A stretch of 64,000 nt of DNA, taken from positions 1 to 64,000 of the forward strand of contig JAHBSJ010000014.1 of assembly GCA_019639155.1 (NCBI GenBank), read 5' to 3'. Origin of the DNA: Acidobacteriota bacterium (GTDB lineage: Bacteria; Acidobacteriota; Blastocatellia; Pyrinomonadales; Pyrinomonadaceae). Below, one piece after another: positions 12,667 to 48,546 of the stretch (positions are counted from its first letter, which is position 1; each line of letters begins with the position of its first letter). The notes beneath the pieces are model-generated. The model did no database searches. It was not told the origin of the DNA and saw nothing but the letters and a program-made list of their open reading frames with translations. The translations under genes and the position numbers were made by a program.

Positions 12667-12706
12667 CCCCTCTTCCCTCTTCCCTCTTCCCTCTTCCCTC
12701 TTCCCT
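12667..12706. repeat. 7-bp microsatellite CCCTCTT
   Basis: Five to six perfect copies of a 7-bp unit run up to the stop of the minus-strand MBL gene. Similar 7-bp arrays occur near 18887 and 18945. Confidence 0.85.
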
Positions 12707-12725
12707 CGCCCCTCTCCACTCTCCA

Positions 12726-13616: not shown

Positions 13617-13736
13617 TAGATACTTGCCGGTTCTGGCTTTCTTCAGATCGAACGGCTTTTAAAAACACGTTTTTTCTAAATGTCAGGAAAAGGTATACTT
13701 AGCCAAGATACTCGATCATAATTGATGGTAATCACA

Positions 13737-14696
13737 ATGAAAAACGGAAATCTTTCTGATGCTCGTGATGTAAACGAAGTTGGCCAACGGCAACCTTCCC
13801 CGAAAAATACTTTGAACGATTTAACCGGTAGAGAGTGGGTATTTAATACGAACTCTATAGAAAGTTTTGAAAGCACGGAAGCCGAACGGGACCTGAACAA
13901 ATTTATAATAGAATTACTGGAAACTGGTTATTCAACTTCAGGAAAAGAGAGTTACGCTCACAAAATACGGAAAGTACATCCTTCTCCAAAGCCGCCACAA
14001 TTAATGGAACGGCTAATTAACTTTTTCAGCAAAAAGGGTGAGCTAATCTTTGATCCTTTCGTTGGCGTTGGCGGAACGTTATTAGGGGCGTCTCTGGCTG
14101 GCAGGAAAGCTATTGGTTTAGATATTAGCGAAAAATATCTGGATGTTTACCGTCAAGCAAATGACCAGCTACTTCTCAACGAACAACAGTTTATTGTCGA
14201 TGATGCAAGGAATCTTGATAACATCCCGGATCTTGATTCGGTTGAGTTTGACTTAATACTCACTGACCCGCCGTATGGCAATATGATGGCGAGGAAAAAA
14301 ACTGGCGAGGCGGTTAAAAAACGGCAGGATACGGCCCCCACGCCATTTACTGATCTTCGTGAGGATATTGGAAACTTAGATTTGGATGCATTCCTGCTGG
14401 AACTAAAAGATATTATTTCTAAATCAGTTGCGAGACTGAAAGACAAGCGATATCTAGTGCTGTTTACAAAGGATTTTCAACCGAAAGCGGATTATCACGG
14501 GATGTTACATTTCGACATTATGACCACTGTTTCTGGGATCGAAAATCTTGCGTATAAGGGAATGAAAATTTGGTACGACAAAACCGTGAACCTATATCCG
14601 TATGGATACCCATACGCTTATGTCGGTAATCAGCTTCATCAATACATCTTGATATTCCGTAAAGAATTACCGAAAGTTAAAAAAACGAAAAAATAA
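13737..14696 (+). CDS. DNA methyltransferase (amino-MTase, DPPY type)
   Basis: About 319 aa. It transfers methyl from S-adenosylmethionine to an exocyclic amino group of DNA. Motif order is X-like (HPSPKPPQLMERLINFF), then motif I (FDPFVGVGGTLLGASLAG), GLDISEKY, then motif IV DPPYG, so X-I-IV, a gamma-like order. DPPY indicates N6-adenine or N4-cytosine. Start is uncertain: ATG at 13725 or 13737. Its stop overlaps the start of the next methyltransferase (TAATG), so the two are coupled. The neighbouring endonuclease makes this part of a type II-like system. Confidence 0.85.
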   Translation: MKNGNLSDARDVNEVGQRQPSPKNTLNDLTGREWVFNTNSIESFESTEAERDLNKFIIELLETGYSTSGKESYAHKIRKVHPSPKPPQLMERLINFFSKKGELIFDPFVGVGGTLLGASLAGRKAIGLDISEKYLDVYRQANDQLLLNEQQFIVDDARNLDNIPDLDSVEFDLILTDPPYGNMMARKKTGEAVKKRQDTAPTPFTDLREDIGNLDLDAFLLELKDIISKSVARLKDKRYLVLFTKDFQPKADYHGMLHFDIMTTVSGIENLAYKGMKIWYDKTVNLYPYGYPYAYVGNQLHQYILIFRKELPKVKKTKK

Positions 14697-15775
14697 TGCG
14701 GTTTATTGGTAATAAAGAAAATCTTGTTGAGAATATCTACAACATTATAAAAACAAGGGAGATTAAAGGTAAGCGGTTTTTTGATGTATTCTCTGGCACG
14801 ACAAGCGTTGGGCGATATTTTAAGAAACGGGGCTACCAAACAATCTCATCGGATTTGTTGTATTTTTCATATTGCCTGCAACGTGCCTATTTAGTTAATA
14901 ATCAGCAGCCGATTTTTTCATCCCTCTTAAAGAAATATGATTTTCCTGCGAACACACTTTTCGCAGAACCTCTAAGTTTAGTTATTGAATTTCTCAATTC
15001 GCTGCCAGGAGTCGAAGGTTTCGTGTATAAAAACTACACGCCTGAGGGATCAGCAACTTTGCCAAGACCCCGCATGTTTTTCATTGGAGAAAATGGTAAG
15101 AAGATTGATGCAATTCGACAACAAATTGAAAATTGGAAAATCGAAAAGTTAATTTCAGAAGATGAATACTTTATTTTACTCGCATGTCTGATTGAGACTG
15201 TTCCCTTTTATGCAAACATTGCTGGGGTCTACGCAGCCTTTCAAAAAACTTGGGACCCCAGAGCTTTAAAATCTCTGCGTCTGCGCGAAATTGAAATCTT
15301 TGAAAGTCAAAATGAACACTTTGCATTTAGTGAAGACAGTGTTGGCCTAGTAGGACAATTTGCTACCGACATCCTTTATTTAGATCCGCCATACAACCAT
15401 AGACAATATGCGCCTAACTATCATTTACTCGAAACGGTGGCAAGATATGACGAGCCTGAAATTAGGGGGCTGGTTGGTATTCGGAGCTACGAAAACCAAA
15501 AATCGAAGTTTTGTAATGCAAGGACAGCGATTGAGGAACTTGATCGGGTGGCCAAAGAGGGAAAATTTAAGCACCTGATCTTAAGTTATAATTCCGAAGG
15601 TGTTATGCCACAAGAAGAGATATTGCAAACTTTGCGCAATTATGGACCAACAGAATTAGTGGAATTTGACTATCTAAGATTCAAAAGCAACAACAACGGC
15701 GAAGCAAAGCATAAGAAATATATAAAGGAACAACTTTATATATTAACTAGCTCCAATAATCTCGCAAATTCTTAA
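14696..15775 (+). CDS. D12-class N6-adenine DNA methyltransferase
   Basis: 359 aa. It begins MRFIGNKENLVENIYNII, the start signature of Dam/D12-class enzymes, with motif I FFDVFSGTTSVGRYF, and ends with motif IV ILYLDPPYNHRQYAPNYH. The long middle section is the presumed target-recognition region. D12-class enzymes methylate adenine N6. Two methyltransferases beside one endonuclease is the usual arrangement when the recognition site is asymmetric and each strand needs its own enzyme. The 3' end overlaps the convergent endonuclease gene by 29 bp. Confidence 0.88.
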   Translation: MRFIGNKENLVENIYNIIKTREIKGKRFFDVFSGTTSVGRYFKKRGYQTISSDLLYFSYCLQRAYLVNNQQPIFSSLLKKYDFPANTLFAEPLSLVIEFLNSLPGVEGFVYKNYTPEGSATLPRPRMFFIGENGKKIDAIRQQIENWKIEKLISEDEYFILLACLIETVPFYANIAGVYAAFQKTWDPRALKSLRLREIEIFESQNEHFAFSEDSVGLVGQFATDILYLDPPYNHRQYAPNYHLLETVARYDEPEIRGLVGIRSYENQKSKFCNARTAIEELDRVAKEGKFKHLILSYNSEGVMPQEEILQTLRNYGPTELVEFDYLRFKSNNNGEAKHKKYIKEQLYILTSSNNLANS

Positions 15776-17147
15776 TGGCCTCCTGGAATAGTTTTGGTGC
15801 CTGAATACTAAGTACCAAATCTCCGTGCTCGTTCAATAGGAAACTTACTTTAAGTTCAATAATCTTTCTTTCTTTGCTTCCATATAAAACTACCGTTCTT
15901 ATGATTTTGTATTGAGGGTAAAATTTTTTGATGTAAAATTCTTCGATGGCATCATAGTTTCCTAATTCCTCTATCCCTTTGAAACGGTTTTGATAGGTCT
16001 TCCCTTCCACATTGATTATTTCTGTCCTACCACAATCAATCATTATAAGATCGGGAATGTGAAAGATTTTTGTTTTGTCTCCGGCCTTGTATGCGTCTCG
16101 ATCGGAATATTTTTCGAGAGAGAGATATTGACCATCTGCGGTTTTGAAATAACCCTTTTCACAACCCGCATGGTTCTCAAAGATCGAAAACCCCTCGGTA
16201 AAGTTCTCGACCGCTAGATGAATAAAAATCGTGCCTAATTTTTCACCTTTCTTTTCATATTTCCAGTATTGATCTTTGAAACTAACCACAGGCACGTTCA
16301 GTCCTTGGAGTTTTAACTCTAGTTTATTTGCGATCGTCAAAAATTTAGCTCCTGTTGCCTTGTTACCGGACCCGAGCTGAGATTGCGATAACCCGTGCTG
16401 CGTTATAACAATATCCTTGTCCCAGCCCAATTTCCTAAGAGCTGAGCAAATCAAACTCAACGCGCCAATATTTGGATCATGAGCAAGCCGCCCGGATTTG
16501 TACAGCCTAGCAGATACCTCGATTCGTTCGTCATATTTAGTAAGTAGAATCGGGACATTACCTTTAGGGGCGCCTCTCATTTTAGATTTTAGAGCAATAA
16601 TTTCATCCACTGACTTAAAGGGCTTATATATTTTGTCGTCTAGATCCTTGCCCAATATTTCTACACCCAATGTCCTCAACAAACGGGTTCCGAATACATA
16701 AGTTGCAGTTGGGTTCTCTTTCTGACCCACACGCAGACTGTAAAGCATTATTTTTTGAACATTTGGGTAGTAATAATCAGCAAATACAAATTTTGAACAC
16801 CTTTGGTAAACACCAGTGTTCCGGCTCTCAGCATCGTCTGTTTTTGTTTCTTCAATCAGATATAAAGGCTTGTCTTTCAAAGTAGGTTCGTCATCTTGAA
16901 AGAAAATAATATAGTCAACAAAACTAGATGTTCCAGTAATTGTCTTCAGTAGAATTCTTTTAACTTTATTACTGTCAAATCCTATAACTTCATATGTAAA
17001 CGAGAATTTACCATTCTCAAGTATTGGTAAAATCCGAAGACCGCTGTAAAAGAATGAAATTTTATTGTCTGTTGCGAAACGATTTAATATCACCTCAAGA
17101 ACTTCCTTCTTCGGCCTTTCCTCAGTCAGAATCCACAAAGTTGACAT
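15747..17147 (-). CDS. Probable type II restriction endonuclease
   Basis: 466 aa, strongly A+T-rich. I do not recognise the family, but its place beside two methyltransferases makes it the likely nuclease. PLYLIEETKTDDAESRN contains an E-x-K arrangement after a strand that could be the core of a PD-(D/E)xK fold, with FVDYIIFFQDDEP upstream as a candidate for the Asp; residue roles are inference. The C-terminal part (IPDLIMIDCGRTEIINVEGK) has a second D...E-x-K-like pattern, and which is the active site is unclear. No signal peptide or membrane segment. The start lies beside an A+T-rich spacer. Confidence 0.65.
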   Translation of the reverse strand: MSTLWILTEERPKKEVLEVILNRFATDNKISFFYSGLRILPILENGKFSFTYEVIGFDSNKVKRILLKTITGTSSFVDYIIFFQDDEPTLKDKPLYLIEETKTDDAESRNTGVYQRCSKFVFADYYYPNVQKIMLYSLRVGQKENPTATYVFGTRLLRTLGVEILGKDLDDKIYKPFKSVDEIIALKSKMRGAPKGNVPILLTKYDERIEVSARLYKSGRLAHDPNIGALSLICSALRKLGWDKDIVITQHGLSQSQLGSGNKATGAKFLTIANKLELKLQGLNVPVVSFKDQYWKYEKKGEKLGTIFIHLAVENFTEGFSIFENHAGCEKGYFKTADGQYLSLEKYSDRDAYKAGDKTKIFHIPDLIMIDCGRTEIINVEGKTYQNRFKGIEELGNYDAIEEFYIKKFYPQYKIIRTVVLYGSKERKIIELKVSFLLNEHGDLVLSIQAPKLFQEAIKNLRDYWS

Positions 17148-17483
17148 AATGTTTATCTTGTAGTTAATGGGCTGTTTTTGTGAAGCATTATCACTTTAAC
17201 ATTTATGACGAAATTCTAAAATACTGACCACGAAACACTGTCCCTATCTGCAACCCACCGAAACTTCCCTCTGCTCACTTTCCTAACAGCGCGACGACCG
17301 AGTTTAGCAGATGAGAGAATCGGAACAACCCATGTGGGGTCGGATCACGGCCGGAAGAACCATTTTCCGAGCCGGTGTCGCAATAATATGGCGATAAGGC
17401 ACGGTGAAGCAGAGCTTCACCGCAAATAGACAGGCAAAGCCTGAAAAGCCAGTGTTTTCAGGCTTTTGTGTTTTTAGGATGGC
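17148..17483. other. Spacer with two strong hairpins
   Basis: No gene seen. GGTGAAGC-AGA-GCTTCACC (17403-17421) and AAAGCCTGAAAA-GCCAGTG-TTTTCAGGCTTT (17436-17466) are perfect hairpins. The second is followed by TTGTGTTTTT and could terminate plus-strand transcription before the tandem array. Confidence 0.65.
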
Positions 17484-17693
17484 CTCAGGAGAATGTTTCT
17501 TGACCTCAGGAGAATGTTTCTTGACCTCAGGAGAATGTTTCTTGACCTCAGGAGAATGTTTCTTGACCTCAGGAGAATGTTTCTTGACCTCAGGAGAATG
17601 TTTTTCGAGCTCAGGAGAATGTTTTTTGACCTCAGGAAAATGTTTTTTGACCTCAGGAAAATGTTTTTTGACCTCAGGAAAATGTTTTTTGAT
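17484..17693. repeat. 21-bp tandem array, ten units
   Basis: Ten units at exact 21-bp spacing (17484, 17505, 17526, 17547, 17568, 17589, 17610, 17631, 17652, 17673), each CTCAGGAGAATGTTTCTTGA or a near copy; the last three carry CTCAGGAAAATG. Mutations cluster in the distal units, as expected for an array growing from one side. At least three frames are open: plus-strand heptads SGECFLT and LRRMFLD, and minus-strand KKHSPEV. I doubt that any is a real protein. Confidence 0.92.
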
Positions 17694-17845
17694 TACAAAA
17701 GAAGCTTTTTTGGCACGAATGACGCAAGAAAGTTGTTGAAATCTCTGTCGTTTGATGGCAAAATCGCAGAACTTTGCACTATCTGGACTCGCGCACTGAA
17801 GTTTTTCGGGGTTTCAGATAAATTTTCGCAAAGCAGGAGATCAAC

Positions 17846-18502
17846 ATGGCAACTGATATTGGAACCTTATCTGATAGTGAACTTCTGGATGCGGCGGCGC
17901 ATGTGAAGGTAGAGTTGGACGCCAATTTGGCGAGATATGTAGGCGTTACGACCGATATGACGGATCTGCTGACGGACGCTATCGACGGAATGTCGGACGC
18001 GCTGACGGCTCATATTCACGCTCAGGCAGAGGCAAAGGCCAAAACGGCGGACAAAGAGGACGCTCGTGCCGTTTTGGAACAGATATTGCGGAATATAAGG
18101 AATGTGGCTAAGGCCGGCGGAACCACGCAAGGCGATATGAACGCTTTGGGATTGCCTTCGGGCTCGGTGACAGCGCCTGCAAATGCGACAGTACCGGACC
18201 TTGAGGTCGATACAAGTGAGCGTTTGAGGCATACGTTGCATTGGCGGGATGCGGCGTCACAGGACAACAAACGTAAGCCTCGCGGAACAATGGGAGCCGA
18301 GATCTGGGTGAAGATCGGCGGACCTCCGCCGTTGGACGAAAAGGACTGTATTTTCCTCACACTGGACGCTTTTACGCCGTATTTGGCCGAATATGAGGGC
18401 GGACAAGCCGGCCAGGTCGCACATTACATGGTCAGATGGCGTATGCGCGACGGTTCGGTTTCAGGTTGGAGCGAAACTGCAAGCGCAACAATCACAGCAT
18501 AA
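17846..18502 (+). CDS. Uncharacterised protein with fibronectin type III-like C-terminus
   Basis: 218 aa, no signal peptide. AGGAGA precedes the ATG. The N-terminal half is helical (LSDSELLDAAAHVKVELDAN, and AQAEAKAKTADKEDARAV), then a Gly/Ser/Pro linker. The C-terminal half (LRHTLHWRDAASQDNKRKPR, and ending VAHYMVRWRMRDGSVSGWSE) has the W/Y/SGWSE pattern of a FN3-like strand set. I do not recognise its function. It starts 150 bp after the 21-bp array and lies next to the R-M island; it could be part of the acquired segment, though its base use is like the host's. Confidence 0.6.
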   Translation: MATDIGTLSDSELLDAAAHVKVELDANLARYVGVTTDMTDLLTDAIDGMSDALTAHIHAQAEAKAKTADKEDARAVLEQILRNIRNVAKAGGTTQGDMNALGLPSGSVTAPANATVPDLEVDTSERLRHTLHWRDAASQDNKRKPRGTMGAEIWVKIGGPPPLDEKDCIFLTLDAFTPYLAEYEGGQAGQVAHYMVRWRMRDGSVSGWSETASATITA

Positions 18503-18883: not shown

Positions 18884-18978
18884 GTCATTGATCATTGGTC
18901 ATTGGTCATTGGTCATTGGTCATTGGTCATTGATCATTCACCACTCTTCACTCTTCACTCTTCACTCTTCACTCTTCG
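18884..18978. repeat. Two adjacent 7-bp microsatellites
   Basis: ATTGGTC repeats five to six times between about 18893 and 18930, then CACTCTT repeats four to five times from about 18944 to 18977. The second array encodes the last codons and stop of ftsK on the minus strand. Confidence 0.85.
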
Positions 18979-21377
18979 TTATTCATCTCCTCGATGTCCT
19001 GCAGGTCTTCGTAGGCTTTGGGCAGGACGGGGCGGGCACGCGTGGAGCCGTCCATTTCGCCAATGTAGCCTTCGCGGACCATCGCGTCGAGAATGGCGGC
19101 CGCGCGTCCGTAGCCGATACGCAGATGCCGCTGCAGCAGGCTGGTCGAACCGCGTTTCGCCTGAACGACGCATTTGAGCGCCTCCATGAACAGCGGATCG
19201 CGGCGGCCCGGCAGATCGCCGTCGGACTCTGCTTCGTCGGGCGGTTTTGTGATGGTCTGGTCGTATTCGGGGCGGCCCTGTGCCTTGATGAATTCGACGA
19301 CCTTCTTTATCTCTTCTTCGTCGGCAAAGGCGCCGTGCACGCGGACGACGTTCGACTGGCCCGGCGGCAGAAACAGCATGTCGCCCTGGCCGAGCAGGCT
19401 CTCGGCACCGTTGGCGTCGATGATGGTGCGGCTGTCCACCTTTGACGACACGCGGAACGATATGCGCGAGGGGAAATTCGCCTTGATAAGGCCGGTGATG
19501 ACATCGACGGACGGCCGCTGCGTCGCCAATACGAGATGTATGCCGACCGCACGCGCCATCTGCGCAAGCCGCGTGATGGATTCTTCGACCTCTTTGCCGG
19601 CGACCATCATCAGATCGGCGAGCTCGTCGATGATGATGACGATGTAGGGCAGCAGTTTGTGCGGCTCGCCGTTGTCGTCCCATTGTTCGAGAGCGTTGCG
19701 GCGCTTCGCCTCGACGTTGTAGCCTGCGATGTTGCGGACGCTGTAGCCGGCGAGGTCCTTGTAACGCCGCTCCATCTCGGTGACGGCCCAGCGGAGCGCG
19801 TTGGCGGCACGTTTGGGGTCGGTGATGATCGGCACCGACAGATGCGGGATGTCCGCGTAGAGGCCGAGCTCGAGCCGCTTCGGATCGACCATGATGAACT
19901 TCACCTCGTCGGGACGCGCCTTGTAGAGGATCGACATCACCAGCGTGTTCACGCCGACGGATTTGCCGGCGCCGGTCGCACCCGCGATCAGCAAATGCGG
20001 CATTTTCGTCAGGTCGGCGACGCAGTTCATGCCGTCGATGGTCTTGCCCAAGGCGAGCGTCAGCAGGCCGTCGGACGAGCGGAATTTTTCGGATTCGATC
20101 ACCTCGCGAAGGTGAATGATCTCGCGGTTGACGTTCGGCACCTCGATGCCGACGTAGGCTTTGCCGGGAATGCGGTCGATGCGTATCGACGGGGCTTTGA
20201 GCGCCAGACAAAGGTCGTCCACGAGGCCCGTCACGCGGTTGTATTTCACGCCGGGATCGGGCTTGAATTCGTAAGTCGTCACCACGGGCCCGGGCAGAAT
20301 GTTCACGACCTTGCCCGCGACGTTCAGCTCACCGGATTTGCGTTCGATCTCCTGACTGAGCTCGATCAGCGCCTCGCGTTTCGCCTCGATGCGAGCCGAA
20401 GGCGGCGTGAGCATGTCGGGCGTCGGCAGGCGGTAATTAGCAAAATCCTGGCCCGCAGCTGGCGGCGTGTCGTCGATCTCTTCTTCGTCTTCTGCGTCGA
20501 TCGCTTCCGCGGGCTCTTCGAATACAAGTTCCGGCTGACGCATCGCGATAGCCGGCTCGTCAACGAGCGTCGGTGCGGGCGATGCGTCTTCGGCAGCGAT
20601 GACGGTCGGCAGCGAAGGCGGCGGCTCGTCGCCGACGATGGTCGGCGGAACGGCGTCGTCGGGCTCCTGGCGTTTTTTACGCCGCCGCTCGGCACGCTGC
20701 ACCGCAGCCTCCGTCTCGCCCATGTGCGATGAACGCCGGCGTGCGCGCCATTCTGTAAAACGCAGCCGCAGATTGCTCCACGCAAGCTCAAAATGGCTCA
20801 TAAAGCCTGCGACGGTGAAATTCGTCAGCAGGACGACCGAGCTTACAAAGACCGCCGCCAGCAGAATTATCGCCCCGATGCGGCCGATAAAATACGCCGT
20901 CCAGCCCGCCGACGCCTCGCCGACGATCGCTCCGTAACCGCCGAAAAGCGATATCAGGCCCGACAGAGCCACGACGAAAAACACGAAACCTGCGATACGC
21001 AGCGGCTTCGGCACGAGCGTATCCGCCTGATAAACACGCAACGCCGCAAGCGCGATCAGCATCGGGAAAAGGAACGACGTCCAGCCGAAGAGATTGATCA
21101 GGATCGACGCGATATTCGCCCCAAGCGGCCCGATCCAGTTCTTCGTCACGCCGGTCCCGTTGCCGGTCGAGAAAACGGCACGGTCGTTCGGGTCGTTCGT
21201 GATCAGCGAAAGAAAAACAAGCACCGCCAACGCCGCCAACACGATCGCCGCCACGTCGTTCCAACGCGAATGCTCCGCCGCCTTGCCTTTTTTGGCGATC
21301 AGCGTCGTCCCGTCCGCCAGACAATAATTGATATCGTCATCTCGGTAAACGGCCTTGCATGTCGGGCATGTTTTCAT
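18969..21377 (-). CDS. ftsK: FtsK/SpoIIIE DNA translocase with N-terminal Cys ribbon
   Basis: 802 aa. Septal DNA pump that clears chromosome dimers at division. Order: Cys ribbon (C4, C7, C19, D22), four transmembrane helices between about residues 41 and 190, an acidic/Pro-rich linker to 320, the alpha and beta motor domains with Walker A GATGAGKS at 466-473 and Walker B IIIDELADLM near 590, then the C-terminal gamma winged helix (KRGSTSLLQRHLRIGYGRAA) that reads KOPS-like sites. The CxxC...CxxDG start is not usual for FtsK and recurs in two kinases here. AGGATTGA precedes the ATG. The stop codon lies inside a microsatellite. Confidence 0.93.
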   Translation of the reverse strand: MKTCPTCKAVYRDDDINYCLADGTTLIAKKGKAAEHSRWNDVAAIVLAALAVLVFLSLITNDPNDRAVFSTGNGTGVTKNWIGPLGANIASILINLFGWTSFLFPMLIALAALRVYQADTLVPKPLRIAGFVFFVVALSGLISLFGGYGAIVGEASAGWTAYFIGRIGAIILLAAVFVSSVVLLTNFTVAGFMSHFELAWSNLRLRFTEWRARRRSSHMGETEAAVQRAERRRKKRQEPDDAVPPTIVGDEPPPSLPTVIAAEDASPAPTLVDEPAIAMRQPELVFEEPAEAIDAEDEEEIDDTPPAAGQDFANYRLPTPDMLTPPSARIEAKREALIELSQEIERKSGELNVAGKVVNILPGPVVTTYEFKPDPGVKYNRVTGLVDDLCLALKAPSIRIDRIPGKAYVGIEVPNVNREIIHLREVIESEKFRSSDGLLTLALGKTIDGMNCVADLTKMPHLLIAGATGAGKSVGVNTLVMSILYKARPDEVKFIMVDPKRLELGLYADIPHLSVPIITDPKRAANALRWAVTEMERRYKDLAGYSVRNIAGYNVEAKRRNALEQWDDNGEPHKLLPYIVIIIDELADLMMVAGKEVEESITRLAQMARAVGIHLVLATQRPSVDVITGLIKANFPSRISFRVSSKVDSRTIIDANGAESLLGQGDMLFLPPGQSNVVRVHGAFADEEEIKKVVEFIKAQGRPEYDQTITKPPDEAESDGDLPGRRDPLFMEALKCVVQAKRGSTSLLQRHLRIGYGRAAAILDAMVREGYIGEMDGSTRARPVLPKAYEDLQDIEEMNNEE

Positions 21378-48261: not shown

Positions 48262-48546
48262 TTTTCCGCGCCGAATAATATTGCTTCCGCGCCGAATAAT
48301 ATTGCTTCCGCGCCGAATAATATTGCTTCCGCGCCGAATAATATTGCTTCCGCGCCGAATAATATTGCTTCCGCGCCGAATAATATTGCTTCCGCGCCGA
48401 ATAATATCGCTTCCGCGCTGAATATTATCGCTTCCGCGCCGAATAATATCGCTTCCGCGCCGAATATTATCGCTTCCGCGCCGAATATAATGGCTTCCGC
48501 GCCGAATATTATTGCCTCCGCGCCGAATATTATTGCTTCCGCGCCC
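48262..48546. repeat. 21-bp tandem array, 13 units plus partial
   Basis: Units start every 21 bp from 48262 to 48514, with a partial one at 48535. Each is GCTTCCGCGCCGAATAATA or close to it. Proximal units are identical; distal ones carry substitutions (AATATTATC, AATATAATG). Plus-strand frame ASAPNNI and minus-strand frame RRGSNII are open, but no ribosome site supports either. Confidence 0.93.

Follow-up and report, generated by a model that had tools for sequence, protein, structure and literature searches.

In iteron and operator arrays, sites are evenly phased at two helical turns and lie on one helix face. Among tandem repeats in bacteria, repeats of constant size (20–21 or 52 nt) and variable sequence have been described by Subirana and Messeguer (PMC8161180 and its reference 3); in the part of PMC8161180 available to us, they are reported mainly in Bacillus, with other groups named, as several unrelated and mostly non-coding families per genome, their length is noted as two helical turns, their function is said not to be obvious, and the authors suggest either a protein polymerising on the DNA or a small RNA. 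The BrickBuilt minisatellite MITE of Porphyromonas gingivalis is scattered through intergenic regions as short tandem repeats that carry a leader and a tail; promoter activity has been reported for it, its 23-nt units form one family, it has terminal inverted repeats, and no one gene family is linked to it (PMC4596501). In type III toxin-antitoxin systems, e.g. ToxIN, longer pseudoknot RNA repeats are located directly 5' of one small protein gene, the product of which is an endoribonuclease (PMC8860590).

Here, we analysed a 64,000-nt stretch of acidobacterial DNA (the window) that contains a 21-bp tandem array, together with related loci in other genomes. The arrays fit the constant-size, variable-sequence class of Subirana and Messeguer as set out in the accessible part of their article: their period is fixed at 21, the unit varies by locus, and they are mostly non-coding. 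Unlike the mainly-Bacillus 20–21-nt repeats described there, they have units of exactly 21 bp, occur in Acidobacteria and Planctomycetes and accompany one protein family; that part of the article reports neither a linked gene nor the dyad symmetry or the predicted promoter placement found here. Sister copies with a leader and a tail recall BrickBuilt, from which the arrays differ in having 21-bp units of many sequences and a link to one protein family. Their position directly 5' of one small protein gene resembles that of type III toxin-antitoxin repeats; unlike in those systems, the repeat is 21 bp, there is no strand bias of the kind that a strand-specific RNA would leave, and the protein has a helix plus FN3 architecture. 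Unlike iteron and operator arrays, no replication or regulator gene adjoins the array: in the window, R-M genes and one FtsK-like ORF are found near it, and no replication-initiator gene. The units of the window array abut and are not separated by unique spacers as in CRISPR.

The array and its surroundings in the window

The features of the locus are as follows.

17436..17466, plus strand: terminator-like hairpin of 12 pairs, then TGTGTTTTT, just 5' of the array (recurrence at sister loci)
17483..17692, no strand assigned: ten exact 21-bp units, consensus CCTCAGGAGAATGTTTCTTGA (TRF)
17736..17764, plus strand: predicted sigma-70-like promoter, TTGAAA-17 bp-CAAAAT, with TG before the second hexamer (pattern match only)
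17834..17838 (approximate), plus strand: ribosome-binding site AGGAG (by eye)
17846..18502, plus strand: helix-FN3 family gene, 218 aa (fold and database searches)

TRF recovered the array with a period of 21, 10.0 copies, 96% matches and zero indels, confirming the ten-copy array of an earlier note on this DNA, in which the coordinates were off by one base. The exact unit spacing and the degradation toward the 3' end described there were also found: five identical CCTCAGGAGAATGTTTCTTGA units are followed by T-rich and GGAAAATG variants with few changes each. The ATG at 17846 begins 153 bp past the array end and is preceded by AGGAG (previously given as 150 bp and AGGAGA). Sites such as the hairpin at 17436-17466 are present in the region at a chance-level count, as judged by shuffling, and support for this hairpin comes from its recurrence at sister loci: on C3, C22 and C21 of the window's genome, a similar sequence lies 5' of the sister array.

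The R-M island previously noticed beside the array is genuine (13722-17147); it encodes two DNA methyltransferases, N6_N4 and D12, plus a restriction enzyme, and PADLOC classes it as type II. The idea that the array serves this island found no support, as any recurring Pfam or PADLOC family accounts for at most 2 of 112 neighbouring proteins, and we regard the adjacency of the R-M genes as incidental. A general link to defence islands was likewise rejected, R-M genes being near few loci only, as was a phage origin or decoy function, with no exact unit in viral contigs and no viral relatives of the protein in a pattern scan.

The window contains a second 21-bp array with a unit unrelated to that of the first (48264-48545; TTCCGCGCCGAATAATATTGC, 13.4 copies, 95%); no family gene lies beside it, and it is located 165 bp 5' of an ORF that by eye is sugar/nucleoside kinase-like. 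Heptamer tandem repeats of GTCATTG, CACTCTT and CCCTCTT are present at 18884-18938, 18942-18985 and 12667-12722, respectively, and are partly readable as 21-bp periods.

The helix-FN3 family and its linkage to 21-bp arrays

Searches of Pfam, NCBIfam, PHROGs and PADLOC assigned the 218-aa product to no family at the cut-offs used. In an AlphaFold2 model (mean pLDDT 80), long N-terminal helices precede a C-terminal beta-sandwich, and because the pTM is 0.48 the arrangement of the domains is uncertain. In structure comparisons this C-terminal part was matched to FN3 domains (Foldseek E about 1e-4; in VIA, Z 11.7 over 93 residues at 2.4 A), so that the product, previously called FN3-like, has an FN3 beta-sandwich by fold, though below the Pfam gathering score. 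Another 21-bp array of the window's genome led us to a second clade of proteins (clade B), the gene of which lies just after that array; its predicted architecture is likewise helices plus FN3. The clade-B protein was not found on the plasmids searched, and the clade-B profile had no match among 145 genomes from the class to which the cyanobacterium Hormoscilla belongs, which is weak evidence. The helix-FN3 family, present in Acidobacteria and Planctomycetes, comprises small bacterial proteins and has no existing name.

An upstream array was called where the lag-21 score passed 19 (shuffle maxima about 10–18). In a set dominated by Acidobacteria, a period-21 array was present upstream in 52/80 family loci as opposed to downstream in 6/83 and at control ORFs in 7/464 (odds ratio 121, Fisher p 4e-44, with related loci treated as independent), and no other lag among 10–40 passed upstream in more than 2 of the 80 loci. 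The smaller sample from Planctomycetes gave 8/24 upstream, 1/24 downstream and none for other periods, and 8 of the 15 distant clade-B members had a period-21 array upstream. TRF and lag scores place 21-bp arrays directly 5' of the gene for the majority of homologues from the same genus and family, and likewise in clade B; an upstream 21-bp array was also found at one locus each in a BRC1 bin and in Hormoscilla. We conclude that the array and the helix-FN3 gene form a real, strongly linked two-part unit. The prospect, raised earlier, that relatives might keep the gene and lack the array does not describe the majority: about two thirds retain an array, built from another unit, and about a third of family loci show no period-21 array. 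At L192 (Hormoscilla), L049 and L213, the tandem repeats upstream of the family gene have periods of 43, 8 and 61 bp, respectively.

Spacing, symmetry and predicted promoter position

Successive unit spacings were 21 bp in 353 cases, 20 bp in one case and 22 bp in none and, because this spacing is exactly two helical turns, all sites would lie on one side of the helix. Below about 55% protein identity, the consensus units of two loci resembled each other no better than shuffled units did. Dyad symmetry, by comparison, exceeded that of column-shuffled arrays, with a combined p of 5e-24 in the first 33 arrays and of 2.5e-7 and 4e-8 in further sets from Planctomycetes plus Hormoscilla and from clade B, respectively; taken individually, the window array (p 0.12) and about half of the clade-B arrays had no significant dyad symmetry.

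We detected no strand preference in folding (z -2.18 sense vs -2.03 antisense, p 0.36), and the strand difference in raw folding energy per base (p 0.03) is what composition would give. An array of RNA hairpins was considered and rejected: raw G.T vs A.C mismatches favoured the sense strand (pooled p 3e-4), and this preference was lost with distinct pairs or after composition control (p 0.39). Strict base-pairing was rejected as well, since the 113 compensatory changes (vs 1277 one-sided changes) exceed the permutation mean of 94.7 by only 2.5 sd. Unit variation carried no codon-phase signature (p 0.94). Because dyad excess is accompanied by no strand preference, no codon phase and little compensatory change, the data favour double-stranded DNA over RNA pairing or coding. 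Intrinsic curvature, calculated with wedge parameters, was higher in arrays than in background, yet column-shuffled arrays were nearly as curved, so that it follows mostly from periodicity, and it was not retained as an explanation. The arrays would also exemplify a cis-element that keeps its spacing and symmetry and not its letters.

Promoter-like sites, predicted by pattern match, are enriched in the spacer between array and gene (p 0.001, 53 loci), with the better -10 boxes mostly 57–104 bp before the gene start. A promoter in this predicted position would place the array upstream of it and outside the transcript of the gene. The proposal in the earlier note that the array is part of a leader is therefore disfavoured, given the terminator-like hairpin before the array, the predicted promoter after it and the lack of a strand-specific RNA signal. 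Partial copies of the unit lie in a locus's own spacer more than in those of other loci (23/53 in the top decile, 5 expected); this would speak for a role of the array as a DNA element, although the copies could be decayed array units.

A proposed mechanism and its alternatives

Our preferred reading, to which we assign a probability of about one half, is that the array is a double-stranded DNA cis-element of helically phased dyadic sites that is located upstream of the promoter of the helix-FN3 gene and sets transcription. Specifically, dyad-symmetric sites 21 bp, or two helical turns, apart would all face one side of the helix just 5' of the promoter, a putative dimeric or oligomeric protein would most likely coat the array cooperatively and, in its bound state, would set transcription of the helix-FN3 gene; spacing and symmetry would be kept, and the letters of the unit would be renewed quickly. 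Of what had been suggested for this locus, a protein-binding array for the gene is the best-supported reading, in view of the linkage across phyla, the dyads, the two-turn spacing and the predicted promoter between array and gene, from which we infer binding, cooperativity and transcriptional control. Because relatives do not share the letters of the unit, one binder of fixed sequence specificity cannot serve all loci. The helix-FN3 protein itself, which is acidic (pI 4.9; family median 5.7), is unlikely to be the binder; no binding protein was found, and no gene recurs among the neighbours.

More tentatively, and at somewhat less than even odds, the 21-bp phased dyad array and the helix-FN3 protein may constitute a two-part module in at least two phyla, in which the array works by geometry (two helical turns and symmetry) and not by a fixed sequence. 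In the available part of PMC8161180, such constant-size repeats are described in many bacteria and are given neither a function nor a gene partner. Their link to one protein family, on one side of the gene and in a pre-promoter position, makes a descriptive puzzle testable and raises the question of what protein recognises a constant 21-bp geometry in units of changing sequence; the module, if true, would be a functional context for bacterial constant-size repeats.

Several alternatives start from the repeats themselves. If the array were transcribed into a repeat RNA acting together with the protein, in the manner of type III toxin-antitoxin systems, this would account for tandem repeats just 5' of one small protein gene with units that vary between systems; satellite repeats of Bacillus coagulans are transcribed, according to the abstract of PMC8625621, and the window array folds well as RNA (z -4.3 vs dinucleotide shuffles). 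We nevertheless consider such an RNA unlikely, because against column-shuffled arrays the z is only -1.1, neither folding nor G.T/A.C mismatches show a strand preference, the terminator-like hairpin precedes the array and the predicted promoter follows it, and RNA has no reason to forbid a period of 20 or 22; in addition, there was no Rfam match at gathering score and, in a whole-protein Foldseek search dominated by the FN3 domain, the helix plus FN3 protein matched no RNase fold. Translation as a heptapeptide repeat (21 bp is seven codons) is very improbable. The spacing is divisible by three and several frames of the window array are open, including SGECFLT, LRRMFLD and, on the minus strand, KKHSPEV, as originally noted; because about 71% of random 7-codon units are open, this means little, and across 53 arrays there are 60 open sense frames where 50.5 are expected. 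Moreover, 13 of the 53 arrays lack any open sense frame, the variation has no codon phase, and unit sequences are unrelated between loci.

Two further alternatives turn on how arrays are distributed in genomes. Array and gene could be a selfish or dispersing module in which the array serves duplication, mobility, maintenance or nucleoid organisation and gene regulation is secondary. This fits with the sister copies that other contigs of the window's genome carry, which have a related leader or tail and in some of which the gene is broken or missing, with a common leader that precedes an array of unrelated unit on C21 (L126, where the leader shares 86-96% identity with the one at the C3 sister copy), with the lack of fixed neighbours, and with a density of 21-type arrays of 17.4 per Mb in the window's genome as opposed to 2.5 per Mb in a genome of the same genus in which no homologues were detected. 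However, we observed no transposase, recombinase or helicase as part of the unit, and the array stays on one side of the gene across phyla; the window's genome may also be unusual in its orphan arrays, because none occurs in 327 kb surrounding the family genes in other genomes, the sole array away from the immediate gene being at another family gene. We therefore regard this possibility as doubtful. Neutral minisatellites that lie near these genes by chance, with 21 reflecting a slippage or repair preference of the lineages, would explain why, in the portion of the window's genome that was sampled, tandem repeats most often have a period of 21 and why orphan 21-bp arrays without a family gene occur there, and constant-size 20–21-nt repeats are known in many bacteria (PMC8161180, the part available to us). 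Such neutrality is hard to reconcile with the upstream excess over downstream positions and its replication in Planctomycetes, with a planctomycete background of 400 kb in which the one clear non-coding 21-type array is sited at a family gene, and with the excess dyad symmetry, and we consider it quite improbable.

At L126 (8200-9447), the C3-like leader and its array of unrelated unit lie about 200 bp before an ORF that by eye resembles asparaginyl-tRNA synthetase. The distant loci L108 (15652-16017) and L128 (18154-18501) have a unit family in common, with a helix-FN3 gene at only one of them. In the sister arrays L009 (4060-4620) and L010 (4670-5140), three successive unit types (CCTCAGGAGAATG.., CCTCCCGAAAATG.. 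and GAAAAGGTTTC..) follow one another with almost unchanged spacing, which may capture units in the course of being replaced.
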